The notes beneath the pieces were generated by a model. That model saw only the letters and a program-made list of their open reading frames with translations. It did no database searches and was not told the DNA's origin. DNA of 62,972 bases, from NCBI GenBank assembly GCA_024280395.1, contig JAJRQG010000055.1, positions 1 to 62,972 on the forward strand, written 5' to 3'. This document shows positions 12,812-28,897 of this stretch, piece by piece. Made by a program: the position numbers and the translations under genes. This stretch comes from Gammaproteobacteria bacterium. Its GTDB lineage: Bacteria; Pseudomonadota; Gammaproteobacteria; Xanthomonadales; Marinicellaceae. Each line of letters opens with the position of its first letter. The stretch's first letter is position 1.

Positions 12812-15664
12812 CTAATCAATTTGTGTGCCTAACATGTACTTATCCAAATCTTCAATTGACATTGCTTTGGCAACCAAATATCCCTGAAATTGATGGCAGC
12901 CTAGTTTTTTTAAGAACTCAAATTGAAACAAAGTTTCTACACCTTCAACAATCAAATCTAATTTTAAATGTTTAGCCATTAACACGATAGTTTCTACCAA
13001 TGCATCGTCACTTATTCCTCTTCCAATTTTGGTAACAAACGATTTATCAAGTTTCAAAATATCAATCGGCATCTTTGTTAAATAGTTCAGTGATGAATAA
13101 CCAGTTCCAAAATCATCAATCGCTATTTTGAAACCCAATTTCTTTATTTGATTCATTTTATTTAAGGTGGCCTCGAAATCACCAATACCAATGCTTTCTG
13201 TTAATTCTAAAATCACTTTTGAATTATTAATTTTGTATTTATTACTGGTATGCTTCAATATCGACACAAATCCGCTGTCTTCAAATTGTAATAAACTAAT
13301 ATTGATAGAAATAGGTAAAATTGGTTGGTTATTTATCCCAAGTTTTTGAATATATTCGAAAACATTATCAATCACCCACTCACTTAGTTCTATAATAAAA
13401 CCTGTTTCTTCAGCTGTTTTTATGAAAGATTCAGGTGTTTTTAGTCCATCTCGAGGATGGTTCCAACGTATCAAAGATTCGTATTTAATGATTTCTTTAT
13501 TGCCATTAAAAATAGGCTGATAATACATTTCGTATTCTTGCCTGATCAAAGCAATTTTTAATGACTTTTCAATTTTAAGCCTTCTATTGGCATCTCTCTT
13601 CATTTCATTCTTAAAAAAACTAACTGAATTGGTTCCTTGTGCTTTGGCGAAATACATTGCAGTATCTGTTTGTTGAAGAATCTCTGTAGCATTTTGAGAG
13701 TTTTCAGGAAAAATGCTTACTCCATAACTAAAAGAGGCATAAATGTTTTGTTCTTCAATTCTAAAAACATTACCAATGTTTATCTGAATTTTCTTAATGA
13801 CCTTGTTTACTTTTGATTCTATTTCTCTAATAGTCTTATATTGTTTCCCTATTAAAATGACAAATTCATCACCTCCAACCCTCGCTACCACGTCATGCTT
13901 ATTCAGAACCTTCTTCAATCTTTTACTAATTTGAATTAATAATTTGTCACCAAAATAGTAGCCCAGTGAATCATTAACCACTTTAAAACGGTCTATATCT
14001 AATGACAACGAGGCCCCAAACATATCGTTTTTTTTGGCTTTATCGATAAATTTACGCAAATATTCCATTAGTCTAACTCTATTAGGTAATTTTGTCATGC
14101 TGTCAAAAAAGGCCAATTGAGATATCTTTCTTTCCTTTTCTTGATCCTCTGTGATATCTACTTTTAGACCCAGAACTTCAATTTTTCCATCTATAATTTT
14201 GCTTGAGATAAAGTCCTTAAACCAGATTTCCTCACCAGTTATAGTTTGGGCTTTGTATTTCAGCATGAACCTATTTTTAGATTCAATTCCCTTATAAAAT
14301 TCTTTTATAATTCTAGTCCTGTCATTCGGGTGAAACATCTTATCTAAAACCAATTCAACATCCATTAGCTCTTCTTTACTATATCCCAATACATTAACAG
14401 CTTCTTCACTGACATAATCAAGCTTTTTCTCACCAACAATATATCTCCAAAAGATAACTGGTTGAATCTCTATCAATTGTTTATATTTATGCTCGCTTTC
14501 TTTAAGTATAGAAAACAGTTCATTTATTTCTTTGGTTTTTATAACAACTTGGTCTTGGATTCGAATGTTATTTCCCGTGATAACTAACAGTGCAGAACCC
14601 AGAATAGAAATAAATAAAAACCCTATTGAAAGAAGCCACCATACCAACCAAGATGCATTATTATAAAAATATTCTGTGGTTGCATAAGCCTCTAGTTGCC
14701 ATTCATTGCTGGCATACTTAAATCTTTCGTGCGAGTTCCAATCTCCTTCTTTAAAAGAATTGTTACTTGACTCAAACAATTTAATTTTTCTATTTTTTTC
14801 TATACTTGAAATAATAAAATGCACATCTCCTAGACCTTCAATTATGATCAAATCGTTGACAACTTCCGTGAATAATTTGTTGATCTCCAGTTTGGCTTGC
14901 TCATTTGGAATCCAATCGTAGGCAGGGTGTTTTGATGAATATTGTTCAATGGTTGCATCAATAAGGGTTTCAATTTTATCATTCAACTTTTCATTGAGTC
15001 GCTCATGCTCAAAATACTTAAAGTTAAAAGCAATTAATAATAACAATGAAAACGTAATCGCTACGGGTATAACAGTTTTATACAGCCTTGGTTTCCAAAC
15101 AGTTCTTGGCTGTTTGAAAATGAGAAACATGATCGGAAGAATCAAAAAAACTCCCACAGCATCTCCAAACCACCAAGTGGAAAAGTTAATTAACAATGTA
15201 TTTTCTTCAACCATTCCGTTGCTAGCCAATGCCATTATTGAAATAAATGACGAGATGAATGTCGGTATTACTCCTGCAAGCAATAATAATTTAAGAACAG
15301 ATTCTAAAGTTAGATAATTGTTTGATTTTCCTAAATGGCGATTAACCAAGTATGCCCCTAACAAACACCGAATACCTGTTGAAACTAGCATAGCAATATA
15401 GGTAATGATCAAAATCGGCTTTTCAATCAAATCATCGAACTGATAAAAGCTCATGCTAAGAAGTGCTTCTCCAATTAATATTGCTGGTAGAAAACGTTTA
15501 CCCCAAAGAATAATCACCCCAACGGCAATACCCGCTGAGGGCCATATTGGTGCAATAAAAGAAGGAGGCAGAATTAGAGGTCTAACAGAAACACCAACGC
15601 CATAATACACCCCAGCAATCAGTATGCTATATAGGATGTATAAAGCTATGTTTTTACTATTCAA
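12812..15664 (-). CDS. MASE1-PAS-GGDEF-EAL membrane c-di-GMP enzyme
   Basis: 950 residues. An N-terminal MASE1-type membrane sensor (about 1-210, about eight helices, including SFIAPIWPSAGIAVGVIILWG) is followed by an extracytoplasmic segment and a helix near 335-355, then a coiled stretch, a PAS/PAC domain (about 390-510), GGDEF (about 515-680; intact VGGDEF) and EAL (about 690-945). The EAL motif reads ESL, but other key residues are present (NIS, ELTES, DDFGTGYSS, KLDKSF, EGVET, QGY), so phosphodiesterase activity is plausible. It has no RxxD inhibitory site before GGDEF. Its ATG overlaps the stop of the FG-GAP/UnbV gene by 8 bases, linking it to the redox cluster. Confidence 0.9.
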   Translation of the reverse strand: MNSKNIALYILYSILIAGVYYGVGVSVRPLILPPSFIAPIWPSAGIAVGVIILWGKRFLPAILIGEALLSMSFYQFDDLIEKPILIITYIAMLVSTGIRCLLGAYLVNRHLGKSNNYLTLESVLKLLLLAGVIPTFISSFISIMALASNGMVEENTLLINFSTWWFGDAVGVFLILPIMFLIFKQPRTVWKPRLYKTVIPVAITFSLLLLIAFNFKYFEHERLNEKLNDKIETLIDATIEQYSSKHPAYDWIPNEQAKLEINKLFTEVVNDLIIIEGLGDVHFIISSIEKNRKIKLFESSNNSFKEGDWNSHERFKYASNEWQLEAYATTEYFYNNASWLVWWLLSIGFLFISILGSALLVITGNNIRIQDQVVIKTKEINELFSILKESEHKYKQLIEIQPVIFWRYIVGEKKLDYVSEEAVNVLGYSKEELMDVELVLDKMFHPNDRTRIIKEFYKGIESKNRFMLKYKAQTITGEEIWFKDFISSKIIDGKIEVLGLKVDITEDQEKERKISQLAFFDSMTKLPNRVRLMEYLRKFIDKAKKNDMFGASLSLDIDRFKVVNDSLGYYFGDKLLIQISKRLKKVLNKHDVVARVGGDEFVILIGKQYKTIREIESKVNKVIKKIQINIGNVFRIEEQNIYASFSYGVSIFPENSQNATEILQQTDTAMYFAKAQGTNSVSFFKNEMKRDANRRLKIEKSLKIALIRQEYEMYYQPIFNGNKEIIKYESLIRWNHPRDGLKTPESFIKTAEETGFIIELSEWVIDNVFEYIQKLGINNQPILPISINISLLQFEDSGFVSILKHTSNKYKINNSKVILELTESIGIGDFEATLNKMNQIKKLGFKIAIDDFGTGYSSLNYLTKMPIDILKLDKSFVTKIGRGISDDALVETIVLMAKHLKLDLIVEGVETLFQFEFLKKLGCHQFQGYLVAKAMSIEDLDKYMLGTQID

Positions 15665-17435
15665 GCGATACAGTATTCCAATTGTTTAATTTTATGTGCT
15701 TAAAAGTCGTTTCCCCGCCATAATAACTTACCACAATTTGGCTTATTTTGTCATCACCTAATCCGATTATTAAGCCCTTTTGAACTTGAGATTGATAACT
15801 TTTGGTAGTAGAATAATTATAAACCCTTTTTTTGTCACCTATTTGAAGAGTGATCATGGCATCTAACAATGGCTGTTTGTACGTTAATTTTATTCCAATC
15901 CAATTGCCCACTGGTGATTGGTTAATAAATAACTTAGGACTTCTAGCAATTTGAGTAACAACCACATCTAAATCACCGTCGTTATCAATATCGGCATAAG
16001 CTGCGGACCTACCAACTAAGTCCTGTTGATTTAAGTCTCCAGCATTATTAACTGGGATATAGGTTCTTTCGCAATCACTTCCACAGTTCCAAAAGAGTTG
16101 ACTTTTTTGTGCATAATGCTGTGCTGCTTGAACCTTATTGATGTCATTTTCAACATGTCCATTGGTTTGGAAAAAATCTAAACGGCCGTCTAAATCGTAA
16201 TCGAAAAAGAACAACCCAAAACTAAGGGCCTGTCTACTTTGAGGCCCTATTCCTGTAATAACCGATTCATCTGTAAAGAAACCCATATTGGCACGATTAA
16301 CGTAAAAAGATGTCATTTCATTGGCAAAATTACCAACTGTTATTGCTAAGTCAGCATCATTTTTATAATAAGAACTGTCTATACCCATAGCACCCGTGGC
16401 CTTACCGCTACCATTATAAGCCAACCCTGTTTCAGCGCCTTGTTCTATAAATGATTTGTCTTGTTGATTGAGATACACAAAATTTCTGGTGGTATCGTTA
16501 GCAACAACCACATCTTGCCAACCATCTTTATTAATATCTAAAAATGTCAGAGCCAATGATTTACCTGAATATTCTGTTTTCGCACCATTTTTAATAATAA
16601 TTCCCGATTTTTCGGTCACATCTGTAAATTTTCCGTCTTTATTTTCAAATAAACAGTTATGAGAGCCTGGAAAATTACTTGGAGGTCCGTAAGCTCTACC
16701 AATTCCGTCTATTTTATAGTCAGCTGCCAAATCTAATTCTCTTGACCACTGTACATAATTCAAAACCATTAAATCCAAATCACCGTCATTGTCATAATCA
16801 AAGAATCCAGAACTGGTGCTCCAACCGTTTTCAGTGCAGTCTAAAATGTCTTTGCTTTCAATAAATGTCTGGCCAGCTTGATTTAGATAGAGATGGTTTT
16901 TCCCTACCGCTGCAATGAACACATCATCAAATCCATCATTGTTCACATCTCCAATGGCAATACCTGTCCCATAAAATCGCTTGTCTAAAGACATTTCCTT
17001 TGTAACATCGGTGAAGCTTCCCTTACCATCATTGCTATAAATATGTTGTGTAGAACTGATTTTTTTATTCCAAAGCCAGTTGGTGCCATTGGCAAAGACA
17101 ATATCTTGGTCACCGTCGTTATCAAAATCAATAAAAGCCACTCCAGAACCCATAGTTTCTGGTAACATTCGATTTCCGATGGCACCATTTTCATGAACAA
17201 AATTGATACCACGTTGTTTGGCTTGTTCTGAGAATTCAGTTTTTGGAGGTTCAATGTGTTTTTCTAATTGAGCCGGAGCTTGATAACTTTGCTCTTTTAT
17301 CAAAATTTTCTCATTGCCCAAATTTTTAAGAATAATAATAATAAATGCAACAACTGCTATTACAATTATTGCCATGACTGATTTTATAAAAAAGTCCGCA
17401 ATAATTTGATCATTTCCCTGTTGTTTTTTTGACAT
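15657..17435 (-). CDS. Membrane-anchored FG-GAP/VCBS repeat protein with ASPIC/UnbV domain (CRTAC1-like)
   Basis: 592 residues. One N-terminal helix (about 18-40) anchors a long extracytoplasmic part. At least six FG-GAP/VCBS repeats carry Ca-binding-like loops (FIDFDNDGDQDIVF, IGDVNNDGFDDVFIA, FFDYDNDGDLDLMV, FLDINKDGWQDVVV, FFDYDLDGRLDFF, YADIDNDGDLDVVV), forming a predicted beta-propeller. The last about 100 residues match ASPIC/UnbV (VGNWIGIKLTYKQPLLDAMITL...QVQKGLIIGLGDDK). Function is unknown. It lies 2 bases after the multiheme cytochrome gene and overlaps the c-di-GMP enzyme, so the three are probably one transcript. Confidence 0.88.
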   Translation of the reverse strand: MSKKQQGNDQIIADFFIKSVMAIIVIAVVAFIIIILKNLGNEKILIKEQSYQAPAQLEKHIEPPKTEFSEQAKQRGINFVHENGAIGNRMLPETMGSGVAFIDFDNDGDQDIVFANGTNWLWNKKISSTQHIYSNDGKGSFTDVTKEMSLDKRFYGTGIAIGDVNNDGFDDVFIAAVGKNHLYLNQAGQTFIESKDILDCTENGWSTSSGFFDYDNDGDLDLMVLNYVQWSRELDLAADYKIDGIGRAYGPPSNFPGSHNCLFENKDGKFTDVTEKSGIIIKNGAKTEYSGKSLALTFLDINKDGWQDVVVANDTTRNFVYLNQQDKSFIEQGAETGLAYNGSGKATGAMGIDSSYYKNDADLAITVGNFANEMTSFYVNRANMGFFTDESVITGIGPQSRQALSFGLFFFDYDLDGRLDFFQTNGHVENDINKVQAAQHYAQKSQLFWNCGSDCERTYIPVNNAGDLNQQDLVGRSAAYADIDNDGDLDVVVTQIARSPKLFINQSPVGNWIGIKLTYKQPLLDAMITLQIGDKKRVYNYSTTKSYQSQVQKGLIIGLGDDKISQIVVSYYGGETTFKHIKLNNWNTVSLE

Positions 17436-17437
17436 GT

Positions 17438-20191
17438 TTATTCTACTCTGATGTTGTTATCTTTAATAAATTGATTCACTGACTGATAATTTCCAATTTT
17501 ATCCAATGGGTAAATAGCAATCAGTTCAGCCGCATGATCTGCTGCATTATTATTCGCCCTAGCTTTAGCAATAACCGTATCGTGAGCACTGTCATCAATC
17601 TTGTACTTTTGATGCAAAGATTTGTGGACTTTGGCCTTACCTAGATTGCCCATGGCGGTATACAGTTGAAACAAACCAAAGTGTGCATCAGCCCACTCAG
17701 GATTAAGCTCAAGAACATGATTATACAATGATACAGATTTTTCTTGCATCGCGAACTGAGAACTCGCAGACAACATCTTGCTTCTTTGAAAGACTGTTTG
17801 AGCATACATGGTCACAAATCGATAATCTTTTGAGAAATCAAAATTGGCTTCTTGGGCGTTTTTAAATTCTGATTGATAAACCCGTTCAAAACTATCAATG
17901 GCTTTTTGTATAAAACCATTTTGTAAATCAATCACCCCTGCAAAATAAGCCAATTGCCAAGTGTATCTAAAACCTTCTATTTTAGAAGCTTGATTTAGCG
18001 CATCTTGTGCTTCATTCAATCTGCCTTGTTGTAAATAGGTGCGCGTTAAATTGACCCAACCCTCGGCTCTACCCAAATCTGCTACTCTGCCAAATGCCTC
18101 TTCAGCTTGCTTAAAAGCTTTCTGACGCAATAAACCAATTCCATAATCATTCCACCGTTTCCAATCCTGTTCTAACTTGGGACTGTTTGATGGTTCAGAG
18201 TTAATTAACAACTTCTGCACATCACTGGCCAAGGTAACAATCGGCAAGTCATTGAATTTATTTTCATTTTCGGTAAACAATCTATAGTAAGTACTGTCAA
18301 ATTTTCGATACAAAACCTTGGCTTCTAAAGTAATTTCTCCTGTCAAACTATCTGGAACCTCTAACGAATAGTGTACCGTTGCGCCTGCTCCTGGAGGAAT
18401 ACTGTGATTGTATAGTGCTGTAAATATGTCCTCAACATTTCTTCTGTCAATCCGATTTCCTTCATTATCCAGCACATAGACATTGACAAAATACGACCAT
18501 TCATTGACATCTCCCTTGTTATTAATGCCTCCACTGCTACCAACCAATTTCCCATCGTGATAAACATTTAATTCAACCCAAATTTGATTTGAATCTCCTG
18601 TTCCTTGAGTAAAGGCATGGCCCAATTTAATGGTACGAATAACTGACTCGACCAAATAAAGTTGACCTGCTTCAATTTCTATATTTTCAGCCGTTAATGG
18701 AGCGATTAATTCTCCTGTAATTTCTCCACCGCGTTTTAATCCAAATAAGTCAATACTCAATGCCCCTTTTAACATCGCATTAATGGGATCAGGTTTCAGC
18801 TTATTCAAATATCTGATACCCGAATTGGCTGATTCAAAGTAATGACTGTGCACTTGTGCTTTACCCGTTAGTGATTCTGTAATGGCGCCGAAGTCCTTCG
18901 AATCTTGCATGGGCATGTGACAGTCAGCACACTTCTCTTTGGCTTTTGGAGGGTAATAGAAACTGGCTACTGCATGGCCCGAAACACCCGAGAGAAAAAA
19001 TGAATCGTAATGATCTTGTCCACGTAACCATTTGTATCCATTGAAAGATTCGGGAATAGAAACTTTGTGGCAAACACTACAAAATTCTGCCGTTTTGTGC
19101 AAAGGTTTCAAGTATGATGCTTTGTGAAAATCTGGCTTGGCTTTGACCAATGTCTGATTGACCCATTGCAAGAATGGCAACTGTGAATAGGTAAATGGAT
19201 ACTGCTCAGGTATGGTTAATGTGTATGCACCATTGCCTTTTACCGAATTGATTTCTGAAATGGCATGGCAAGCAGTACAAGTAATTCCTGCCTCTCCAAT
19301 TTCAGTCCCTATAAAATCTATATCTTTATCAAATTCACCACTAAACATAATCACAGGATCATGACAAGCAGCACAGAACCGAGCCTCATCATGATTGTCA
19401 TCACGGTTATCTAAAAATTCACGTGTATTATTCACCGCAAAAGAATACGATTGGTTATTAAAACTGGATACCTTATGAACACTGTTCATCCAACCTTCAT
19501 GTACATCGGCATGACAGTTCTTGCAGTATTGGTTATTGTCCAAATCTTCGGCTTTAATGTGCTTATTGGTATGGGTTTGTGCAAACGATGGTGCAAACAG
19601 TGGGTTGATTTCTTGGCGCTCTATTATTGGAGGATTAAAAGTGTCTTTCTGTAACCATGCCAATGCCACCATGGCAATAACTGTAGCCAATACTGTGATT
19701 TTGCTAGAACCCCATGAAAGTTTTGGCCCCGCTAAACGGTGCATCATAAATAACCAAATGGCAATTATAGGTAAGACAACATGCAACCAATAAGTTATCG
19801 AACGCAGTTGGATATTCTTTATTTCTAAAAACGGAATCTCTCGAGTCAACAACAATCCAGTTAACAACAATAAAATCGAAAATACAAACAAAGCATAACC
19901 AGCCTTAATGGCTCTTTTATTGCGCCTGTTTTTAGTGTTGCCCATATGAATAAAGCCGTAAACAATAAAAGGTACGATAATTAGCAAGCCTAGAACCAAA
20001 TGGGCCAAAAACATATATAAATAGGTTTGATCTTGTAAGCTTTTATCTGTAAACCACTCTACAAATGTGACAGTAGACAAATAAACAGAATTGATGAACA
20101 AGAGGGAAAACAAGAAAAAAACAATTCTAAGAACTAGTTTAAGCTTCGGCCCAACAGCTTTTTTAGGTTTAATTTTATTGTTTGGATTCAT
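17438..20191 (-). CDS. Fusion: membrane b-type-like helices, five-heme cytochrome c554-like domain, TPR domain
   Basis: 917 residues. N-terminal part: five hydrophobic helices, with histidine pairs at 64/82 and 137/151 in two of them, resembling heme-b-binding bundles (inference). Middle: five CxxCH motifs at 223-227 (CKNCH), 273-277 (CAACH), 305-309 (CTACH), 371-375 (CSVCH) and 421-425 (CADCH), each predicted to bind c heme; spacing recalls cytochrome c554-type domains. Residues 480-640 are beta-rich (DLFGLKRGGEITGE...). The C-terminus (from about 680) holds TPR-like helical repeats. The layout suggests quinone-to-periplasm electron transfer with a docking domain, not a known named enzyme. 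Tight spacing (2 and 4 bases) ties it to two FG-GAP/UnbV proteins. Confidence 0.85.
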   Translation of the reverse strand: MNPNNKIKPKKAVGPKLKLVLRIVFFLFSLLFINSVYLSTVTFVEWFTDKSLQDQTYLYMFLAHLVLGLLIIVPFIVYGFIHMGNTKNRRNKRAIKAGYALFVFSILLLLTGLLLTREIPFLEIKNIQLRSITYWLHVVLPIIAIWLFMMHRLAGPKLSWGSSKITVLATVIAMVALAWLQKDTFNPPIIERQEINPLFAPSFAQTHTNKHIKAEDLDNNQYCKNCHADVHEGWMNSVHKVSSFNNQSYSFAVNNTREFLDNRDDNHDEARFCAACHDPVIMFSGEFDKDIDFIGTEIGEAGITCTACHAISEINSVKGNGAYTLTIPEQYPFTYSQLPFLQWVNQTLVKAKPDFHKASYLKPLHKTAEFCSVCHKVSIPESFNGYKWLRGQDHYDSFFLSGVSGHAVASFYYPPKAKEKCADCHMPMQDSKDFGAITESLTGKAQVHSHYFESANSGIRYLNKLKPDPINAMLKGALSIDLFGLKRGGEITGELIAPLTAENIEIEAGQLYLVESVIRTIKLGHAFTQGTGDSNQIWVELNVYHDGKLVGSSGGINNKGDVNEWSYFVNVYVLDNEGNRIDRRNVEDIFTALYNHSIPPGAGATVHYSLEVPDSLTGEITLEAKVLYRKFDSTYYRLFTENENKFNDLPIVTLASDVQKLLINSEPSNSPKLEQDWKRWNDYGIGLLRQKAFKQAEEAFGRVADLGRAEGWVNLTRTYLQQGRLNEAQDALNQASKIEGFRYTWQLAYFAGVIDLQNGFIQKAIDSFERVYQSEFKNAQEANFDFSKDYRFVTMYAQTVFQRSKMLSASSQFAMQEKSVSLYNHVLELNPEWADAHFGLFQLYTAMGNLGKAKVHKSLHQKYKIDDSAHDTVIAKARANNNAADHAAELIAIYPLDKIGNYQSVNQFIKDNNIRVE

Positions 20192-20195
20192 TTAT

Positions 20196-23100
20196 TCATT
20201 TTCCAGCTTTAAATCGGGTATTGTACTTTTGATTGAGTGTTTTTGAACGCGCCGATACTTTACCATTGAAAGGAATCGGGTCAAGGGTTTCACCCTCTTT
20301 GGTTAAAATATCCATGTCTTTAGCCCAACCTTTAAATTTTAAAATATAAAATCGACTAAAACCTTCTTCCAATACAGGTAAGTCATCGCTATAAAACAAC
20401 TCTATACTTTCGCCAGCACCTATGATAGCCAAAGCATTGTCTTGTTCTTCTAGCAATTCTGTGACTTCACCCAATTGAGAATATGCTCCTTCCATATACC
20501 GGGCATCCCAAAAAGGCTCTATGTCAGTGAAATCATAACTTGGAACACGCTGCTCGTTATTTTGACGCTTAGGAAAACCCAACTGTTTAACAGTCGCTCG
20601 GTTTAACTCAAGCTCATACCTATTAATATTTTCAGGTGTTACTGATTGAATGAGACCCAATTGGTCAAAATATATTTCCATATTGGTTCTGATTCTAAGA
20701 CGTCTGGTTTCTTCTGGCAAATCCAAGGGCACAGTTGCTGCACGTGGCATACCAGCAGGATAGCCAAACTCAACCAAAAGCGTTTTCCATTCACCATCAA
20801 CAAAGTATTCAATGGTAGGAGCTTTCGGGCTCAAACCTGATTGCCATGCTGCAAACATAGTTTGTGAATAACCATATTCAACCCAGCCATTCATCACTAA
20901 GTGATATTCGCCTTGGAGCTCATCTGCAAACTCTAGTGTTGTTACTTGTTCATCCACTAAACCTAAAAATCGATGATCTTGATTAATAATATCAATGGCT
21001 TGTTTATCGGTTGTTAAAACCTTTTCAGTGACATCTTCATTCAGTTTGTTTAACACCAATATTGGCATTATCATATCCTGATAGAATAAAATCCTCCCTG
21101 TTACTTGTGGTTCAGAAATCATCATTCTTTCATCCAAAGTGACAGAGTATTCTTTGGGCACATCAAGAACTTCAATGGTCAATTGATCTAAATAAGCAGA
21201 CTCTTCCATAGGTTCACTAAATTGCAATTTGAATAAACCATTTTCTGACTCAAATTGTTCCGAGGTCAACAAATAATTTTCCCAAGGCCGAGGAACACCA
21301 TACTCTTCGCGACCAATCGCAAAACCAATACCACCCACACCCAGCACATCACTGATGAATTCATACTTGCCGTTATTCCAAACAAAAATCACTGGGCAAC
21401 TGGATAATTGACGTTGGGTCTCCGTGATTTTGTGGTATTGATTGGTTTTCAATGCCATTTCGGTTTGAAATACACCATCAGACCATTCCATCGCTATATA
21501 ATCAATCTGTTGCTTCGTGCCTGCTGCAATTGTCATCGGTTGATAATCTTGATCATAGCCCGTCATATTTTGAAATGAATTCTCCACAGCGTAAAAACCC
21601 TGGTTGTGTAAAACCAAACTGGTGCCGATTCCTGAAAAATTTGAACGCACAGAATTGGCATCATCCTCTTTTCCTGATACCCCAACAAGAAGATAAGGGT
21701 TTCTGGAAGAACTGGCAGATACATGCTTTATTTGTTTGCCTTGTAGAACAACTAATTCTGGCCCATTAATGGTATTCAATAATTTATAGGAATCAATATT
21801 GTTTATTAATACCTGCTCAACAAATTTTCCATAATTGTCTAATATTTTTAACCCTTGTGTCTCTTGAAGTAAAAACTCTTTGCGGCCATTGCCATTGATA
21901 TCTGCTTGCATCATAAAGTCACCTTCAATCTCATCAAGTTGTTGGATAGTTTTGTAATACTTCAACAATCGATCGTATTCAAACGATAGAATTTTATTGC
22001 CTTCAAACAATATATTGAGCTCAGGATAACCATTAATGTCATTGTCTGAAAAACTCGCTGAACGAATTAACGAGTCATATTGCAAAGAATAGATGGTTTC
22101 ATAGTTCCACATTCTATCGTTCAATAAAATCGTAAAAGTTTTGTCGGCTATTAAAATAATATCTACATCTCTATCACTGTCTATATCTTCGACCAAAATT
22201 TGTTGATACCCACTAAGGGTTGGCAATGAAATCTTTTTAGATAGGGGGACAAATGTATTGTTTAAATTGTTATTCCACAATTCAAATTGCCCGGTTTCTG
22301 ATAACAGCAACAAATCCAAATCTCCATCATGGTCAGCATCAATTAATCTAACCGCAGAAGATTTAAGCTGACTTAATCCAAATGATTGCATATCAACAGA
22401 ATCAAAACCAACATCGGTTTGTAAATACAATTGATCTGATTGTCCAGTTACATAAACATCAATTTTACTGTCGTTGTTTATATCACCCCATGCCAATTTG
22501 TGCTCGCCAGATTCCAAAGCTATCGCAAATTTATTTATTTCTTGAGGTGCTGTTAAAAAATTGTCAAACACTTTTAATTGATTTTTTTCTACAACATAAA
22601 GTTGACTGTCTTGAGACTGATTAAGATTCACTACACCGTATTGTTGAATGTTGTTTATTTCAACCAGATCTAATGATTTAGGTGAATTAAAATATGGAGG
22701 CTTGGTCTTGGTTTCTTGACTTGCAGTATTTTTATATTCTGAATACGCCTGTGCAGTGGCTTTGGGACCCATTCTGGTATATTTGATTTCGGCCAATTTT
22801 GCTTTGGGGTTGCTGGATAGTTTTTGATAGGATTCCAACATTTCCTTAGCTAATTCAGTATTAATCAGTCTTTGCGCTGCCATAAAACTGCCATAATAAG
22901 CACTGCGAAGATATCCATCAGCCTTAATTGCCTTTTGATAGAGGTCTAGAGATTGTTCAACCTCTCCATTTTGCAAATGACATTGACCTGCAAAATATAA
23001 AGCATAAGCATCTGAGCTATCTGCTTCGATTATGCTATTAAACTGTGGCAATGCTTTTTCGCACAAACCTTGATTGAAACTCAAAATACCTGCGATGTAA

Positions 23101-23498
23101 TGAGCCACTAAATTGTTGATATTTTCTAACAATAAACTTTCAGCAATATTCATTGCTCGATTTTCGTCCCCTTCCTTTTGACGATTTAACAAAGCAATAG
23201 CAAGATTTTGTTGTGCTAACTGCCATTTAGATTCTATTTTGACCAATTGCTCAAATGTTGATGTGGCTTTGTCATAATCAAATGAACCCATTTCTCCAAC
23301 ACCTTTGTTGTTGAGGGATATGGCAAGTGCTGAAATTCTAGGCTTTACTTCTTGTACAACAATGGATTCTAATGAGTTGTTTTGAGTCACATCACCCGAA
23401 CATGCCCATAGATTAACCAATAAGAAAACGGTGATTAAATTTTTAATTAATCCTTGATCATTCATTTGTTTTTTATATAATTTATTTATTTTTGGCAT
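20196..23498 (-). CDS. Large TPR plus FG-GAP/UnbV (CRTAC1-like) predicted lipoprotein
   Basis: 1100 residues from this start; Met12 (ATG at 23465) is an equally good start and gives a shorter signal. The N-terminus ends in a lipobox-like LWAC. Residues about 50-260 are TPR-like (SFNQGLCEKALPQFNSIIEADSSDAYALYFAGQCHLQNGEVEQSLDLYQKAI). Then come FG-GAP/VCBS loops (WGDINNDSKIDVYV, LIDADHDGDLDLLL, VEDIDSDRDVDIIL, QADINGNGRKEFLL), an UnbV-like segment (about 610-690), and a long C-terminal domain opening SSCPVIFVWNNGKYEFISDVLG, which I recognise from other CRTAC1-like proteins. Start-stop overlap with the nitrilase upstream and a 4-base gap to the cytochrome indicate one operon. Role: probable surface partner of the cytochrome (inference). 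Confidence 0.82.
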   Translation of the reverse strand: MPKINKLYKKQMNDQGLIKNLITVFLLVNLWACSGDVTQNNSLESIVVQEVKPRISALAISLNNKGVGEMGSFDYDKATSTFEQLVKIESKWQLAQQNLAIALLNRQKEGDENRAMNIAESLLLENINNLVAHYIAGILSFNQGLCEKALPQFNSIIEADSSDAYALYFAGQCHLQNGEVEQSLDLYQKAIKADGYLRSAYYGSFMAAQRLINTELAKEMLESYQKLSSNPKAKLAEIKYTRMGPKATAQAYSEYKNTASQETKTKPPYFNSPKSLDLVEINNIQQYGVVNLNQSQDSQLYVVEKNQLKVFDNFLTAPQEINKFAIALESGEHKLAWGDINNDSKIDVYVTGQSDQLYLQTDVGFDSVDMQSFGLSQLKSSAVRLIDADHDGDLDLLLLSETGQFELWNNNLNNTFVPLSKKISLPTLSGYQQILVEDIDSDRDVDIILIADKTFTILLNDRMWNYETIYSLQYDSLIRSASFSDNDINGYPELNILFEGNKILSFEYDRLLKYYKTIQQLDEIEGDFMMQADINGNGRKEFLLQETQGLKILDNYGKFVEQVLINNIDSYKLLNTINGPELVVLQGKQIKHVSASSSRNPYLLVGVSGKEDDANSVRSNFSGIGTSLVLHNQGFYAVENSFQNMTGYDQDYQPMTIAAGTKQQIDYIAMEWSDGVFQTEMALKTNQYHKITETQRQLSSCPVIFVWNNGKYEFISDVLGVGGIGFAIGREEYGVPRPWENYLLTSEQFESENGLFKLQFSEPMEESAYLDQLTIEVLDVPKEYSVTLDERMMISEPQVTGRILFYQDMIMPILVLNKLNEDVTEKVLTTDKQAIDIINQDHRFLGLVDEQVTTLEFADELQGEYHLVMNGWVEYGYSQTMFAAWQSGLSPKAPTIEYFVDGEWKTLLVEFGYPAGMPRAATVPLDLPEETRRLRIRTNMEIYFDQLGLIQSVTPENINRYELELNRATVKQLGFPKRQNNEQRVPSYDFTDIEPFWDARYMEGAYSQLGEVTELLEEQDNALAIIGAGESIELFYSDDLPVLEEGFSRFYILKFKGWAKDMDILTKEGETLDPIPFNGKVSARSKTLNQKYNTRFKAGK

Positions 23499-24453
23499 GC
23501 GTAATTCTTTGATTTAATTGTTCAATTGTTGGAATCGTTGAATCGGTCCCAAATTTATTTTGTTGCTGATAGACATAGGCATTGTTCCTAAAATGAGCGA
23601 TTGTATCATGCCCTTTACGGCGTTTTCTTTCTGCTCTGATTGCCCCGATGTCAATCGGTGCAACTACTACTTTTTCTCCTGAGTTTTCCCCTGCACTGGC
23701 AAGGATTCGACCATCGAAATCTACGATCATAGAGCCACCTGGCCAGCTAAACGGCGGATAATTTTTTAAGCTAGCTCCTTGATTGGCTGCAACCACATAC
23801 ACCATATTTTCTAATGCACGGGTTCTATTAACCAAGCTCCACCATTCCATCGGCGCTGTAGAACCCCATGGATCCATGTATGCCGATACTCGATTGATTA
23901 TTTCTGCTCCAGAAAAGGCTATTTCTCGAATACATTCAGGAAACAACCAATCATAACAAATAGCCACACCCAGTTTTCCAATCTCAGTATCTACAACTGG
24001 AAACAAATTTTCGTGGTAATCAGGTAAATCTGCAGGCGAAGTATGCACTTCCCAGGGAACCCAAGTATTAACTTTCCGGTATTTCGATAAAACGCCACCA
24101 GGTCCAATTAGCAAAGTGGTATTGAAAACATGTCCAGGATAATTGCTGTCTTTTTCTAGAAAGCTAGCAGTTTGAATATAAATGCCATATTTTTTACAGA
24201 GTTTTTGATACTTTTCAGTAAATTCCCCAGGCAAATCAACTGCCAGTTTGTTGTGAATTTCCTTTGCAGTCTGATAGATAGGTACTTGGTGACCAAACTC
24301 TGGTAATACAAACAACCTTACATCAAAAAATGGTTCGTACGCAATAACCGTTTGTTCAATGATTTTACACATGAAATCAATGCGGTTTGGAATATCTTTA
24401 CGTGATTGTGGAGCTGGAAAATCCGTCTGAATAGTGGCTGCGTAATATCTCAT
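23482..24453 (-). CDS. Carbon-nitrogen hydrolase (nitrilase superfamily)
   Basis: About 323 residues with the catalytic triad Glu (LPEFGHQVP, about residue 52), Lys (SKYRKVNTW) and Cys (GVAICYDWLFPE). Nitrilase-fold enzymes hydrolyse nitriles, amides or carbamoyl groups; the sequence does not tell which. I start at ATG 24453 (MRYYAATIQ); the longer frame begins with a TTG at 24462. No signal peptide is visible, so it is cytoplasmic. The gene precedes the large FG-GAP/UnbV lipoprotein and overlaps its longest frame by 17 bases, but any metabolic link to the redox proteins is unknown. Confidence 0.87.
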   Translation of the reverse strand: MRYYAATIQTDFPAPQSRKDIPNRIDFMCKIIEQTVIAYEPFFDVRLFVLPEFGHQVPIYQTAKEIHNKLAVDLPGEFTEKYQKLCKKYGIYIQTASFLEKDSNYPGHVFNTTLLIGPGGVLSKYRKVNTWVPWEVHTSPADLPDYHENLFPVVDTEIGKLGVAICYDWLFPECIREIAFSGAEIINRVSAYMDPWGSTAPMEWWSLVNRTRALENMVYVVAANQGASLKNYPPFSWPGGSMIVDFDGRILASAGENSGEKVVVAPIDIGAIRAERKRRKGHDTIAHFRNNAYVYQQQNKFGTDSTIPTIEQLNQRITHAKNK

Positions 24454-24471
24454 TTTTACCAAAACACAAAG

Positions 24472-24498
24472 ATGTTGATTTTATCACATTATCAACAT
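24472..24498 (-). terminator. 8-bp hairpin upstream of the nitrilase gene
   Basis: Arms atgttgat (24472-24479) and atcaacat (24491-24498) pair perfectly around 11 bases. On the minus strand the stem is followed by CTTTGTGTTTT, a moderate U-rich run, just before the nitrilase start. It could terminate the TonB-like transcript or act as a leader element of the downstream operon. Confidence 0.45.
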
Positions 24499-24562
24499 TT
24501 ATAGATTGGTTAGTTATAAAACACTAAAAAATTAAACTTTTTTTAAGACCCCATATAGCAGT

Positions 24563-25456
24563 TTATAATTTAAATACTATCCTAACAACTTTAGAAAGTT
24601 GATTATTGACTCCATAGTCACTTGGTGGTTCATATTTCCATTTCCTTACGGCTTTTAGGGCTGCATTATTAAAAATTCTATAATTTCTAGAGGATCTACT
24701 CACTTCTGCATTAGCCACATTGCCAGTCACATCGATTGTAATGTTGACTTCAACCCAACCTTCTTTTTTTTCACGAGCTGCCTTGGTTGGATATACAGGC
24801 AAAACATTCTTAATTTTTTTCCAGACATAAGGCTGAATTTGAGCTGGTGCCTTAACCACAACTTCTGCCAATTGATCTTGTTGACTTAACACTTCTTCTT
24901 GAGTTGGCTCTTGTTTAATCTTCTCTACAACTCTTCTTTCTTCTTCTTTACGTTGCTTTTCTTTCAATTGTTTATCCGCAACATTTTTTTCTTTGACCGT
25001 TCTTTGCTTCTCAGCTAATTGCTCAGCAGCAATTTTTTCTTCTTCAGCCTTTCTTTGCTGCTCAACTAACTGCTCATCAGCAATCCTTTTTTCATTGTCT
25101 TTCCTTTCTTGTTCTTGTAACATCAACTCTGCAGCCACCCTTTTTTCTTCGGCCTTAATTTCATTTTGATCTGTTCCATCATCTGAAGTTATAACGGGTC
25201 TTTCTACTTGAATCAAATCATCCCGATTAATTTCCGAATCATCAGAATCAAGCAACCTAGTTCTATCCATTCCAAAATCGCCCATATCCATCTCGTCTTC
25301 ATCATCCAAGTCAGCATCAAATTTTAAATTAGGTGTTTCTTCTCGAGTCGGCATTTTACTGCCCCAGGATGGTTTACTTTCATGCTTCTTAGCATCAGTT
25401 TGTGAATATGAGTTTTGTATTACGAACAAAAAAACAATTATTAGTATAACTTTCAT
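24563..25456 (-). CDS. TonB-like energy transducer family protein
   Basis: About 297 residues. Hydrophobic N-terminus (residues 2-15, ILIIVFLFVIQNSYS) that looks like a signal peptide or anchor, an acidic region (DADLDDEDEMDMGD), a long K/E/Q/R-rich helical repeat (about 100-200, units like AEEEKIAAEQLAEKQRK), then a TonB C-terminal domain (VLPVYPTKAAREKKEGWVEVNITIDVTGNV...ALKAVRKWKYEPP). TonB domains contact outer-membrane receptors. The start is the ATG at 25456; the frame extends to a TTG at 25462. No exbB/exbD or receptor gene lies nearby. The spacer composition resembles TolA-like proteins. Confidence 0.85.
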   Translation of the reverse strand: MKVILIIVFLFVIQNSYSQTDAKKHESKPSWGSKMPTREETPNLKFDADLDDEDEMDMGDFGMDRTRLLDSDDSEINRDDLIQVERPVITSDDGTDQNEIKAEEKRVAAELMLQEQERKDNEKRIADEQLVEQQRKAEEEKIAAEQLAEKQRTVKEKNVADKQLKEKQRKEEERRVVEKIKQEPTQEEVLSQQDQLAEVVVKAPAQIQPYVWKKIKNVLPVYPTKAAREKKEGWVEVNITIDVTGNVANAEVSRSSRNYRIFNNAALKAVRKWKYEPPSDYGVNNQLSKVVRIVFKL

Positions 25457-25756
25457 TGTCAATCCAATATTGGGGAAATAATAAATAACTTAAGTGGTCC
25501 AATGATATGAATAATGTATCATTTTGATGAATACATCACGTTATATTTATATTATTATGTTATAAAGACCTACTCTCCAAGTTTATTCTACTTAACTCAC
25601 TGATAAATTCAATTTAATGTGTCAATATTGCTACGTTTTGCGCTATATAACCATCCTTAGAGCAATCTAAGCATATTCTTAACAATTCTACTGAGAATTT
25701 TTAGCACTAACTTATTTTATTTATTAAAATTTCCTAAAGAGTTTTACATAGTTCTC
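25457..25756. other. AT-rich intergenic region between the TonB-like gene and cbbO
   Basis: About 300 bases with no gene. It separates the cbb module (whose transcription ends here) from the TonB-like gene. Small hairpins are visible: AATGATA...TATCATT near 25519-25545 and CTTAGA-GCAA-TCTAAG near 25660-25675. Promoter elements for the TonB-like gene are presumably here but none stands out. Confidence 0.4.
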
Positions 25757-28015
25757 TTATTGAGTTAATTCCAAAAACACTTTAGGTAATTGTTCTGGAA
25801 GCCTATCAACATGATCAATTACTGTGAAATGACTACCAAAAATATCTTCAACATAGCTATCGGCATTTTTATCAAGCGTAATGCAGTAAGAATAAATACC
25901 TTTTGCTTGAAGCTCTTCAACAGTTTTTTTGGTATCTTTAATTAACGTTTTAGGATCTTTGGCATCGATATCAGCAGGTTCACCATCAGTTAACACCAAC
26001 ATTAATTTCTTTTCAGCGGTTTGTGATTGCAAATAGTGGGCGGCATGACGCATTGCAGCGCCCATTCTTGTGGAGTAACCAGCTTGCATTTTGGCGATTC
26101 TGGCTTTAACTTCATTTCCATAATTTTCAGAATAGCCTTTAATGTGTTGGTATCTAACTTCACTTCTTGTATCCGAGCTAAAACCCGCAATGGCAAACTT
26201 ATCACCCAGTTTATCAATCGTCCAAGCGGTAATTGCCAAGGCTTCTTGTGATAACTCTAATAGCGACTGACCAGTTTCGGGATTAATGTTATTCAAGGAC
26301 TCTGAAGAATCTACTAATAACATTACTGCAATATTGCGACTGTCTGTAGTAGTGCTGTAATTAATTCTCAAATCGGGGATTTGCCCACTTTTAAAATCTA
26401 TTAATGACCGCAAAGCTATATCCAAATCCAGCTCCTCACCTTCTTCTTGAAACCTTATTCGTTTTTTATTTTGTGGCTTGAGAATTTCAATCATGGTTTT
26501 CAACCTTTTGGCTAATTCACCATGTTTTGACATTAATTGATCTATCTTATTGGCTTCTCCAGAAGGATGAAGCCTCTCATAAACAGTGGTCCAATCAGGC
26601 CTATAACTTTGTGAAATATAATCCCACTCATCATAAAATCTAGGTGGCAAGCTATCAGCAGAATCCACAATTTTTTCATCATTTTGATATTCATTGGGCA
26701 CGATTTCATCGGCTTCATCGTATTCTTCATAATGGTACCAAAAACACCGGTTATCATCACGATAACTAACCTCTGTATTATCAAAAAACATAGTCGGCAG
26801 GCTATCCGAGTCTTGCCTAGAACGAATGAAATATTTTGTTCCCAGTTTAGACATTTCTTGTGTTGAAGATGGTTTACCACTGGATAACAGCCCATTAAAT
26901 TCTTTGCGCATTTCTTGCATCAAATCATCTTCTGGGTCAAATTCAGGATCAATCAATGCCCGAGACAATCTTGCCGCTCGGTATCTTAAAGTCGAGACTT
27001 TTATACCATCACAGGCCCCTTTCTGTGGATATGGATGCAAAGCCAAATAATATTTTCTCAGCCCTGGATAAAGACGCATAGCCAATACATCAACACGCGA
27101 ATCTTCAAATACCGATACCATCAATTGCATTTGTGGTGCATAATTATCCGCCATTAGATTACTAGACCATTTATTGTGCGACATCAAATGAGAAAGCATA
27201 GTTCGATAGCGATTGAGCCCGCTCACGCTATTTTCATCTTCATAGACATCGGGAACGGCAATCACTTCATCATCTAAATATGGCTGTGGTATTCTTATTT
27301 GATCCAAATCTGTTGAAAAGTGAGTAATCGGCAAATCACATTCCCATAAACAATCTTTTGCCATGATTAATTTGTGTTCAATTTGCTTAAATGTGGTCCC
27401 TTTGCGTTCCCTATTGATAATACTTTTGGCATCGTGTGATGCCAAACTAAAATATTCAATCTGTTGATCCGGTGCATCGTGATAGTTTCTGGCGCCATAA
27501 TCGACAAAATTACTGACCCCAGTTAAATCCAATTTTGCCAACAATTTAGACATGTTTTCCAACAAAGGCACCAATCCGGAGCTTTCATACAAAGAGTTAT
27601 GCCCATGGATTACAGTTTGAGTTTTGTCAATAAACTCATCGATGACAGTAAAATAGAGCTTAAGGTTTTCGGTATTCTTTATATGCTCAGAAATGAGCCT
27701 TAGAGACTTCAAAAAAGGAATCAATGCAGCTTTATTTGGGCTTCGGGCCAGTTGATATCCATATTTGGTAATGGATTTTATTGAATCAACACCCAATGTC
27801 ACTATAATTATCGGCATTTCTTCTAAGAATACCAAAACAGGCTCAACTCCTTGGCCGATAGAACACAAAAAATTAGCACCATCTAAATACTGATAGACTT
27901 GCTGTTCTGGCATGATATCCATTGCCTTGCCCAAGTTTTCAGCAAACGCCTCTATGGCTTGTGGAAACTTGCACTTAAAGCGTTGTTGGTATTTTTCGAG
28001 TAATTCAGGAGTCAT
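25757..28015 (-). CDS. cbbO: CbbO, von Willebrand A-domain RuBisCO activase partner
   Basis: About 752 residues. The C-terminal VWA domain has a MIDAS motif, LLVDSSESLNN (DxSxS), and LVLTDGEPAD. The middle region (MVSVFEDSRVDVLAMRLYPG...) matches the CbbO/NorD family. CbbO recruits the hexameric AAA ATPase CbbQ to inhibited RuBisCO and helps strip off sugar phosphates. I start at ATG 28015 (MTPELLEKYQ), 10 bases after the cbbQ stop; the longer frame begins with a TTG overlapping cbbQ. Context (cbbM-cbbQ-cbbO) separates it from NorD/GvpN-type relatives. Confidence 0.9.
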   Translation of the reverse strand: MTPELLEKYQQRFKCKFPQAIEAFAENLGKAMDIMPEQQVYQYLDGANFLCSIGQGVEPVLVFLEEMPIIIVTLGVDSIKSITKYGYQLARSPNKAALIPFLKSLRLISEHIKNTENLKLYFTVIDEFIDKTQTVIHGHNSLYESSGLVPLLENMSKLLAKLDLTGVSNFVDYGARNYHDAPDQQIEYFSLASHDAKSIINRERKGTTFKQIEHKLIMAKDCLWECDLPITHFSTDLDQIRIPQPYLDDEVIAVPDVYEDENSVSGLNRYRTMLSHLMSHNKWSSNLMADNYAPQMQLMVSVFEDSRVDVLAMRLYPGLRKYYLALHPYPQKGACDGIKVSTLRYRAARLSRALIDPEFDPEDDLMQEMRKEFNGLLSSGKPSSTQEMSKLGTKYFIRSRQDSDSLPTMFFDNTEVSYRDDNRCFWYHYEEYDEADEIVPNEYQNDEKIVDSADSLPPRFYDEWDYISQSYRPDWTTVYERLHPSGEANKIDQLMSKHGELAKRLKTMIEILKPQNKKRIRFQEEGEELDLDIALRSLIDFKSGQIPDLRINYSTTTDSRNIAVMLLVDSSESLNNINPETGQSLLELSQEALAITAWTIDKLGDKFAIAGFSSDTRSEVRYQHIKGYSENYGNEVKARIAKMQAGYSTRMGAAMRHAAHYLQSQTAEKKLMLVLTDGEPADIDAKDPKTLIKDTKKTVEELQAKGIYSYCITLDKNADSYVEDIFGSHFTVIDHVDRLPEQLPKVFLELTQ

Positions 28016-28025
28016 ATTGGCATGA

Positions 28026-28826
28026 TTAGCCAAATATCAGTTCGATGGCATTGTCCAGTGTCTCACGTATATCCGCATCATCGGTAATGGGTCTAACCAG
28101 AGCCATTTTACAGGCATCAATTGGTGCAATACCTTGATTGATTAATTGTGCTGCATAAACCATTAATCGGGTAGAAATTCCTTCATCTAAACCATGACCT
28201 TTTAAAGCACGTGCTGTATGGCCAATCTTTACCAGTTTATTGGCTACTTCAATATCTATTTTTCCTTCAGTTTTTACAATACTTGCTTCATCCTCGGCAT
28301 TAGCATAATCAAAATCCAGTCCGCAAAAACGTTGCTTGGTGGATTGTTTTAAATCTTTCATTAAGGATTGATAGCCTGGGTTATATGAAATAACCAACTG
28401 AAAATCAGGATGTGCTTTAATCAACTCACCCTTTTTATCTAGTGACAGTTCACGTCGATGATCGGTTAATGAATGGATTACTACCATGGTATCTTGTCGT
28501 GCTTCAACTATTTCATCTAAATAACAAATGGCACCATAACGTGCAGCCATGGTTAATGGGCCATCAACCCAACGGGTACCATTAGAATCCAGTAAATAGC
28601 GTCCAACCAAATCAGATGCTGTAATGTCTTCATTACAAGAAACAGAAATAATGGGTTTGCCCAATTTCCAAGCCATATACTCCACAAAACGAGACTTTCC
28701 ACAACCTGTTGGACCTTTAACCATCATGGGAAGTTTTGCATTATAGGCAGCTTGATACAACTCAACTTCATTTGAAAGCTGTTTATAAAAAGGTTCTTTT
28801 TCTATTTTGTATTGGTTTATGTCCAT
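28026..28826 (-). CDS. cbbQ: CbbQ, MoxR-type AAA+ ATPase RuBisCO activase
   Basis: 266 residues from the ATG at 28826 (MDINQYKIEKEPFY), matching the usual CbbQ length of about 265-270. The longer frame starts at 28868 inside a hairpin and is rejected. Walker A GPTGCGKS is at residues 38-45, Walker B is CYLDEIVEARQD, and FNPGYQ-like VISYNPGYQSLMKDLK and R-rich sensor regions follow. With CbbO it remodels and reactivates RuBisCO using ATP. It follows cbbM by 71 bases that contain a strong hairpin. Confidence 0.93.
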   Translation of the reverse strand: MDINQYKIEKEPFYKQLSNEVELYQAAYNAKLPMMVKGPTGCGKSRFVEYMAWKLGKPIISVSCNEDITASDLVGRYLLDSNGTRWVDGPLTMAARYGAICYLDEIVEARQDTMVVIHSLTDHRRELSLDKKGELIKAHPDFQLVISYNPGYQSLMKDLKQSTKQRFCGLDFDYANAEDEASIVKTEGKIDIEVANKLVKIGHTARALKGHGLDEGISTRLMVYAAQLINQGIAPIDACKMALVRPITDDADIRETLDNAIELIFG

Positions 28827-28856
28827 CTTTTCTTTTATGTGTTTTTTTAAAGCAAC

Positions 28857-28878
28857 GGGAGCACACATGGGTGCTCCC
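28857..28878 (-). terminator. 8-bp GC-rich hairpin between cbbM and cbbQ
   Basis: Arms gggagcac (28857-28864) and gtgctccc (28871-28878) pair perfectly around a 6-base loop. Minus-strand transcription meets it 19 bases after the cbbM stop. The downstream sequence GTTGCTTTAAAAAAAC lacks a long U-run, so partial termination or protection of the cbbM mRNA 3' end is likely, giving more RuBisCO than CbbQO (inference). Confidence 0.6.
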
Positions 28879-28897
28879 CTACGAAGTATTAAATGTA

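Follow-up and report, generated by a model that had tools for sequence, protein, structure and literature searches.

The DNA analysed here, called the window below, is a stretch of 62,972 nucleotides from a gammaproteobacterium of the family Marinicellaceae (GenBank assembly GCA_024280395.1, contig JAJRQG010000055.1, positions 1 to 62,972 of the forward strand). Its minus strand carries a cluster of genes around a b/c-type multiheme cytochrome, CYT917, and an adjacent FG-GAP/UnbV propeller protein, FGGAP592. The four genes of the cluster and the parts of the cytochrome were assigned as follows (protein lengths in amino acids, aa; ORF, open reading frame).

23482..24462, minus strand: NIT326, nitrilase-superfamily amidase-like protein, 326 aa (CN_hydrolase; possible ATG start at 24453)
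20196..23498, minus strand: TPRFG1100, lipoprotein-like protein with TPR, FG-GAP, degenerate UnbV and an uncharacterised C-terminal region, 1100 aa
17438..20191, minus strand: CYT917, b/c cytochrome, 917 aa (ORF, five CxxCH motifs, Cytochrome_C554 and TPR Pfam matches)
19652..20158, minus strand: predicted b-type membrane domain of CYT917, residues 12-180 (hydropathy, invariant His, weak Pfam matches in the family)
18917..19525, minus strand: five CxxCH heme sites of CYT917, residues 223-425 (motif search and conservation)
17612..18163, minus strand: TPR region of CYT917, about residues 677-860 (Pfam TPR; helices in the model)
15657..17435, minus strand: FGGAP592, FG-GAP/UnbV propeller with an N-terminal hydrophobic stretch, 592 aa (Pfam, adjacency, tree)

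The original prediction, made from the sequence alone, had described these genes as a packed set of four, and this description held. The ORFs lie on one strand, and the junctions NIT326/TPRFG1100/CYT917/FGGAP592 are a 17-base overlap, a 4-base gap and a 2-base gap. Promoter-like and terminator-like sites were near the level of shuffled sequence (44 against a mean of 51.2, and 9 against 7.5, respectively) and did not fix the limits of the operon.

Domain composition of the cluster proteins

CYT917 had been predicted to be a five-heme membrane cytochrome with TPR repeats, and we found five hydrophobic helices in its N-terminal part by hydropathy, five CxxCH motifs at residues 223, 273, 305, 371 and 421, and a C-terminal TPR region. 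It matched Cytochrome_C554 (PF13435) with 29.5 bits against a curated cut-off of 20.8, and this profile was matched by 22 of 22 family members at E up to 1. DUF4405 was matched weakly by eight of the 22 members at the same threshold (best 7.6e-5), and Ni_hydr_CYTB, the test for a HydC/FdnI-like b domain, was matched weakly by seven (best 4.7e-6); CYT917 itself matched neither. The TPR region, which is present in only part of the cytochrome family, formed helices with predicted local distance difference test (pLDDT) scores of mostly 70-89 inside an otherwise poor AlphaFold2 model, and the putative beta domain between the heme sites and the TPR region was weakly modelled.

The alignment of 22 divergent members, which reaches down to 21% identity to CYT917, showed that H64 and H82 (helix 2), H137 and H151 (helix 4), the Cys and His residues of all five heme sites, and H239, H356, H450, H525, Q392, Y395, N456, D533 and R629 are invariant. 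In a separate 73-row alignment, H239, H356, H450, H525, Q392, Y395, N456 and D533 were kept in 73 of 73 rows; among the rows with a letter at the position, R629 was kept in 69/69, H82 in 60/60, H137 and H151 in 61/61, and H64 in 62/64. The His spacings of 18 on helix 2 and 14 on helix 4 were also kept, as judged by eye, in three divergent proteins (loci L019, L096 and L097). Because the four membrane His residues sit two each on two helices expected to run the same way, they suggest a pair of stacked b hemes that spans the membrane, and CYT917 is predicted to carry seven hemes, five of c type and two of b type. The five c hemes stand against four universal further periplasmic His residues (H239, H356, H450 and H525), so the sixth ligand of one heme would not be universal; this heme could be an open, catalytic heme, or its ligand could merely be variable. 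More His residues are conserved in the subfamily of CYT917 itself, H365 in 47/47 and H394 in 46/47. Weak similarity to CYT917 (63-81 bits) was shown by a family of pentaheme proteins that look soluble and are about 580 aa long, encoded at L030:5221-6963, L037:9209-10957 and L038:8661-10394; the L030 member of this family has an N-terminal CarboxypepD_reg domain.

Both propeller proteins had been called UnbV proteins in the original prediction, and the call was upheld for one of them. FGGAP592 matched UnbV_ASPIC (PF07593) with 25.9 bits against a cut-off of 23.4 and FG-GAP_3 with 113.9 bits. Its nearest solved chain was Cartilage acidic protein 1 (9etn), and its N-terminal hydrophobic stretch is read as a putative membrane anchor. 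TPRFG1100 had FG-GAP and TPR matches in Pfam and no PF07593 match at E up to 0.01; since seven of 14 members of its family do match PF07593, we regard its UnbV domain as degenerate. Cys33 of TPRFG1100, invariant in 14 members, is read as the probable lipobox Cys. The C-terminal part of this protein (20196-21401) is strongly conserved, with the consensus motif SSCPVxFxW...SDVLGVGGIGFA, and had no Pfam match.

Pairing of the cytochrome and propeller genes across genomes

We scored the neighbours of 73 cytochrome loci (genomes and loci are denoted by G and L numbers), with near relatives included and the window itself left out, and dropped L036, L089 and L093, which were cut by contig ends. The results showed that an UnbV-family gene adjoins the cytochrome gene on the same strand in 64 of the 70 testable loci, 27 of 30 in Gammaproteobacteria and 37 of 40 in planctomycetes. 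The planctomycete loci were 40 of at least 110 cytochrome matches (the 20 best and 20 chosen by hand among the weaker ones), and the UnbV profile used for the count was built from 12 sequences, several of which are cytochrome neighbours. According to the ORF tables, the UnbV gene lies downstream with an overlap in L099 and L172; in L096, L097 and L123 it lies upstream, and the scored gap of 1.4-1.9 kb is the remainder of that UnbV gene. PF07593 matches numbered 78 in 18 gammaproteobacterial genomes (about 1.2 per Mb) and 291 in 22 planctomycete genomes (about 2.0 per Mb), so adjacency by chance would be expected at well under 1% per locus. The sole PF07593 match of genomes G302 and G285 is the neighbour of the cytochrome. 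The neighbourhood is thus found in other genomes as well, and the packing is not merely local.

The pairwise distances among the cytochromes and among the adjacent UnbV proteins correlated at 0.935 over 62 pairs, a value as high being reached in 0 of 2000 permutations, and the cytochrome tree and the tree of the adjacent UnbV proteins gave the same subfamilies. Both trees came from quick searches with support from the Shimodaira-Hasegawa-like approximate likelihood ratio test (SH-aLRT) alone, and some cytochrome rows were matched stretches without the membrane domain. In the genomes with two pairs (G811, G836, G949 and G829), each propeller fell in the subfamily of its own cytochrome; because paralogues of one genome thus group by pair and not by genome, the match of the trees is not only that of the species tree. 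The source genome of the window also has a second pair, on contig 102 (L019:7833-11863), in which the gene of a 754-aa b/c cytochrome with CX4CH as its first heme site and the gene of a 589-aa UnbV protein overlap by 4 bases, and in both trees the nearest relative of this pair outside the genus was the planctomycete pair L178. The cytochromes of Gammaproteobacteria and planctomycetes were intermixed in the quick tree, whose well-supported branches require five or more changes of label, indicating that the pairs moved between the two groups or are old and were often lost.

The larger gene set was also compared among genomes. Strong matches to CYT917 (E <1e-40) and to TPRFG1100 (E <1e-100) were held by the same 19 of 41 genomes, which comprised the source genome and 40 relatives. 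The order nitrilase, 1100-aa protein, cytochrome, UnbV protein was intact in 11 of these 19, the source genome included. Six others were cut by contig ends and consistent as far as readable (G001, G004, G005, G008, G028 and, by match positions alone, G015), and the remaining two were G021, whose set has no nitrilase gene, and G033, where the set is divided between two places. Among 369 genomes sampled from the class, the window-type cytochrome occurred in 13 (the source genome included) and TPRFG1100 in nine, all nine within the 13; when the source genome was excluded, TPRFG1100 was found in 8 of 12 cytochrome-positive genomes against 0 of 356 other gammaproteobacterial genomes. Because TPRFG1100 and the cytochrome lie on different contigs in five of these eight genomes, their co-occurrence is not a mere neighbourhood effect, and the separated genes had further TPR and UnbV genes, or the nitrilase gene in G364, as neighbours. 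Among 294 genomes of the planctomycete phylum, 83 had the cytochrome family, 91 had a TPRFG1100-profile match and 71 had both, which puts TPRFG1100-like proteins in 71 of 83 cytochrome-positive genomes against 20 of 211 others. In a wider sample of 398 genomes from the phylum of the window, the cytochrome was found in two, the source genome and one of the same class.

The adjacency, the matching trees and the co-occurrence with TPRFG1100 support the original claim that propeller proteins are partners of the cytochrome. We regard the cytochrome-propeller system as real and conserved, and the partnership as well supported. Several observations weigh against it. No UnbV neighbour was present in six testable loci (G156, G338, G404, G808, G973 and G884:C9); among these, G973 and the G884 copy form their own clade in the cytochrome tree, and G156 keeps an orthologous propeller beside its TPRFG1100 homologue. 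Most planctomycete genomes hold many more UnbV genes (up to 41) than cytochromes of this family, so the majority of UnbV proteins have another role. TPRFG1100 was missing from four cytochrome-positive gammaproteobacterial genomes (G054, G302, G404 and G285) and from G075 and G278, which have another cytochrome subfamily, and in 20 planctomycete genomes TPRFG-like proteins occur and the cytochrome does not. The sample surveys scored at most two candidates per genome (at most three for the planctomycete cytochrome), which makes absences there less sure; the absence from G054, G302, G404 and G285 is surer than these. The sampled genomes are related, and the p-values overstate their independence. 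Finally, the AlphaFold2 models were poor, with mean pLDDT of 49.7 for CYT917 and 40.1 for TPRFG1100, from alignments of six and five sequences, respectively.

Further UnbV and TPR genes were noted during this comparison. The G008 orthologue of FGGAP592 (L035:4311-6132) is split into two overlapping frames, which is likely an assembly error (coverage 1.6). A third UnbV gene of the source genome lies on contig 97 (L020:7865-9517); the stretch read around it holds no ORF with CxxCH, and the clade of this UnbV gene includes UnbV genes that accompany TPR-only genes. A TPR-only gene of 554-590 aa recurs beside UnbV genes in the gammaproteobacterial clusters L090, L091, L092, L095 and L086, and its five products are about 35-50% mutually identical; L118 and L116 have a gene that is like it in size and position alone. 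Around the cluster of G021 (L029:1903-18197) lie three additional FG-GAP/UnbV genes and two TPR genes.

Possible function and alternative explanations

CbcL, MtrH and MtoC have an N-terminal multiheme c domain and a C-terminal six-helix b domain of the HydC/FdnI-like type (PMC6295460), and CbcL, in which a di-heme b-type membrane domain is joined to a periplasmic multiheme c domain, has been proposed to act at the quinone pool (PMC9129911; PMC6295460). CYT917 likewise appears to join both kinds of domain in one polypeptide, but the order is reversed, with the helices at residues 12-180 and the CxxCH motifs at 223-425. It is further set apart from the description of CbcL by five helices, four invariant His residues, five c hemes, the beta domain, the TPR region and the UnbV partner. 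CbcL is the nearest described architecture that we found in these sources, and because the domain order, the helix and heme numbers and the propeller partner differ, CYT917 is not classed as CbcL. ImcH and CymA (NapC/NirT) act at the quinone pool as multiheme c cytochromes with a membrane anchor, as CYT917 would, and the helices of ImcH are also N-terminal; unlike CYT917, ImcH has three helices and seven CX2CH motifs, and CymA has one short membrane stretch and four hemes (PMC6295460). PF03264 (NapC/NirT) was not among the 24 Pfam matches of CYT917 at E up to 1. The cytochrome c554 family (PF13435) gives the common match of the c domain, and CYT917 differs from it by the fused b-type domain and, in part of its family, by the TPR region.

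For the propeller, the CRTAC1/UnbV (ASPIC) proteins share PF07593 and FG-GAP with FGGAP592, and the FGGAP592 subset differs from them by its tie to a multiheme cytochrome. To our knowledge, the FG-GAP/UnbV family has no settled function, and the sparse literature agrees. A CRTAC1-family FG-GAP gene has been described near genes of putative hydrazine synthase subunits in three of four clades; two clades have it amid the subunit genes, one has it upstream of them, and the fourth has none there (PMC12758564). As here, an FG-GAP gene stands beside heme-enzyme genes in those clusters; compared by description, its neighbours there are homologues of hydrazine synthase (HZS) subunits. In the available part of a Ca. 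Solibacter paper, UnbV appears only in tables (PMC3174227). No description of a cytochrome-UnbV pair was found in the open-access literature, subscription papers and preprints being outside the search, and no open-access paper was found that joins TPR, multiheme, planctomycete and cytochrome b. As far as searched, the cytochrome-propeller system is undescribed.

Taking the evidence as a whole, we hold with slightly better than even confidence that the best explanation is a b/c cytochrome, linked to quinone and perhaps equipped with one catalytic heme, that works together with a periplasmic propeller of its own. At the core would be a unit of two genes, one for a b/c cytochrome of the inner membrane and one for an FG-GAP/UnbV propeller that is anchored in the membrane and docks on the cytochrome. 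The b domain suggests that electron transfer is quinone-linked; this domain would exchange electrons with the quinone pool and the c hemes would carry them into the periplasm, the most likely direction being quinol oxidation and periplasmic reduction. The propeller may bind the heme domain and present a redox partner or substrate, or alternatively may gate the fifth c heme, which has no universally conserved distal His; the partner presented may be a protein or a small molecule, or the propeller may do no more than stabilise the hemes. The TPR domains and the 1100-aa lipoprotein could build a larger envelope complex, which would sit on the periplasmic side of the inner membrane with these parts as its tethers.

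A distinctly less probable explanation is that the complex is an enzyme. The pentaheme domain would then have one catalytic heme for reducing or oxidising a small substrate in the periplasm, and the propeller would provide the pocket or channel for that substrate, by analogy with other multiheme enzymes of the c554/NrfA/HAO type. The five c hemes with four universal extra His residues would fit such an enzyme, as would the invariant Q392, Y395, N456, D533 and R629 and the FG-GAP gene amid or upstream of the putative hydrazine synthase genes in three clades (PMC12758564). However, the fourth clade lacks the FG-GAP gene at that place, and the fifth ligand may just vary, given the conservation of H365 and H394 in the subfamily of CYT917. 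Searches of the PDB also offered little for an enzyme: with the profile of the cytochrome family, the 60 of 330 chains listed all matched the TPR region only, and with the CYT917 sequence the one cytochrome match was weak (5ze8, cytochrome c552, E 0.032). As a bolder and tentative proposal, which we think rather more likely to fail than to stand, the b/c pentaheme cytochrome and the UnbV propeller may represent a class of envelope redox complexes in which the two proteins make up a single obligate enzyme and a catalytic heme sits where they meet. Such a complex would have been passed as a unit between Planctomycetota and Gammaproteobacteria and would account for the function of one UnbV/CRTAC1 branch.

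The original prediction had favoured a membrane-to-surface redox assembly, and we now consider an extracellular electron transfer route from the membrane to the surface unlikely. The b/c fusion does recall CbcL, MtrH and MtoC (PMC6295460), the partner TPRFG1100 is lipoprotein-like with an invariant Cys, and two cytochromes gave weak ExtKL matches (NF040886; 20.5 and 23.9 bits, E 1.5e-4 and 1.4e-5), which lie far under the cut-off of 250, so that membership in ExtKL was rejected. On the other side, no MtrB/PioB match was found in the source genome (99.31% complete) or in 22 cytochrome-carrying planctomycete genomes. Of 40 cytochrome-carrying genomes, the source genome included, 35 had no MtrB/PioB match above the cut-off and five had one, each on another contig, other kinds of conduit not having been searched. 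Another ORF with at least three CxxCH motifs was present in only two of 75 cytochrome loci (L030 and L182). The absence of MtrB-type porins and the few multiheme neighbours argue against a general role in extracellular electron transfer and leave a surface conduit weakly supported. It is more improbable still that the cytochrome supplies the adjacent RuBisCO genes, which read as form II type, by passing electrons from an inorganic donor to the quinone pool. The RuBisCO, CbbQ and CbbO genes lie directly upstream of the cluster in the window and likewise in G003, G010 and G005, and RuBisCO without CbbQ and CbbO does so in G007; but besides the window these are the only four of 75 cytochrome loci with RuBisCO within the stretch read, all from the same genus, and G009 of that genus lacks it. 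Packing without functional meaning might be seen in the splitting of the cluster in G033, G364 and G156, but chance or local packing is practically ruled out by the adjacency and co-inheritance in two distant groups, and the co-occurrence of the genes on separate contigs also speaks against it.

PF07593 matches are numerous in planctomycetes, 5 to 41 per genome in 22 genomes, and the tight, co-inherited pairing with a membrane cytochrome makes UnbV function directly testable. The cytochrome family itself, carried by 83 of the 294 sampled genomes of the planctomycete phylum, would give electrons of the quinone pool a way into the periplasm that has not been described before.

Neighbouring genes

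The cluster is flanked by the following genes.

25757-30277: genes for CbbO, CbbQ and the RuBisCO large chain, immediately upstream of the cluster
24563..25462, minus strand: TonB-family gene (ATG at 25456; first in the transcription order of the cluster region)
12812..15664, minus strand: MASE1/PAS/GGDEF/EAL protein (overlaps the end of FGGAP592 by 8 bases)

The transcription order on the minus strand is TonB-family gene, nitrilase, TPRFG1100, CYT917, FGGAP592 and GGDEF/EAL gene. The range first proposed for the cluster, 15657..25456, covers the four genes, also takes in the TonB-family gene and omits the GGDEF/EAL gene.

NIT326 matched CN_hydrolase with 132 bits, and its nearest solved chains were formamidases; assignment as a formamidase by NF009803 was rejected (125.3 bits against a cut-off of 406). 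Its residues E55, K130 and C169, invariant in five homologues, are presumably the catalytic triad of the nitrilase superfamily. The nitrilase had been listed among the four genes of the cluster, and it is not an integral part of the system: a nitrilase gene is missing next to the cluster of G021 and next to the TPRFG1100 homologue in G234, G381, G156, G101 and G398.

The TonB-family gene lies 100 bases from the nitrilase gene. It is kept in the genus of the window and in some members of the family (G013 and G016); next to the clusters read in other families, no such gene was seen. The GGDEF/EAL gene, seen in the same genus only, occupies the same place in five of the nine same-genus relatives in which the cluster was read, the contig ending before it in the other four.

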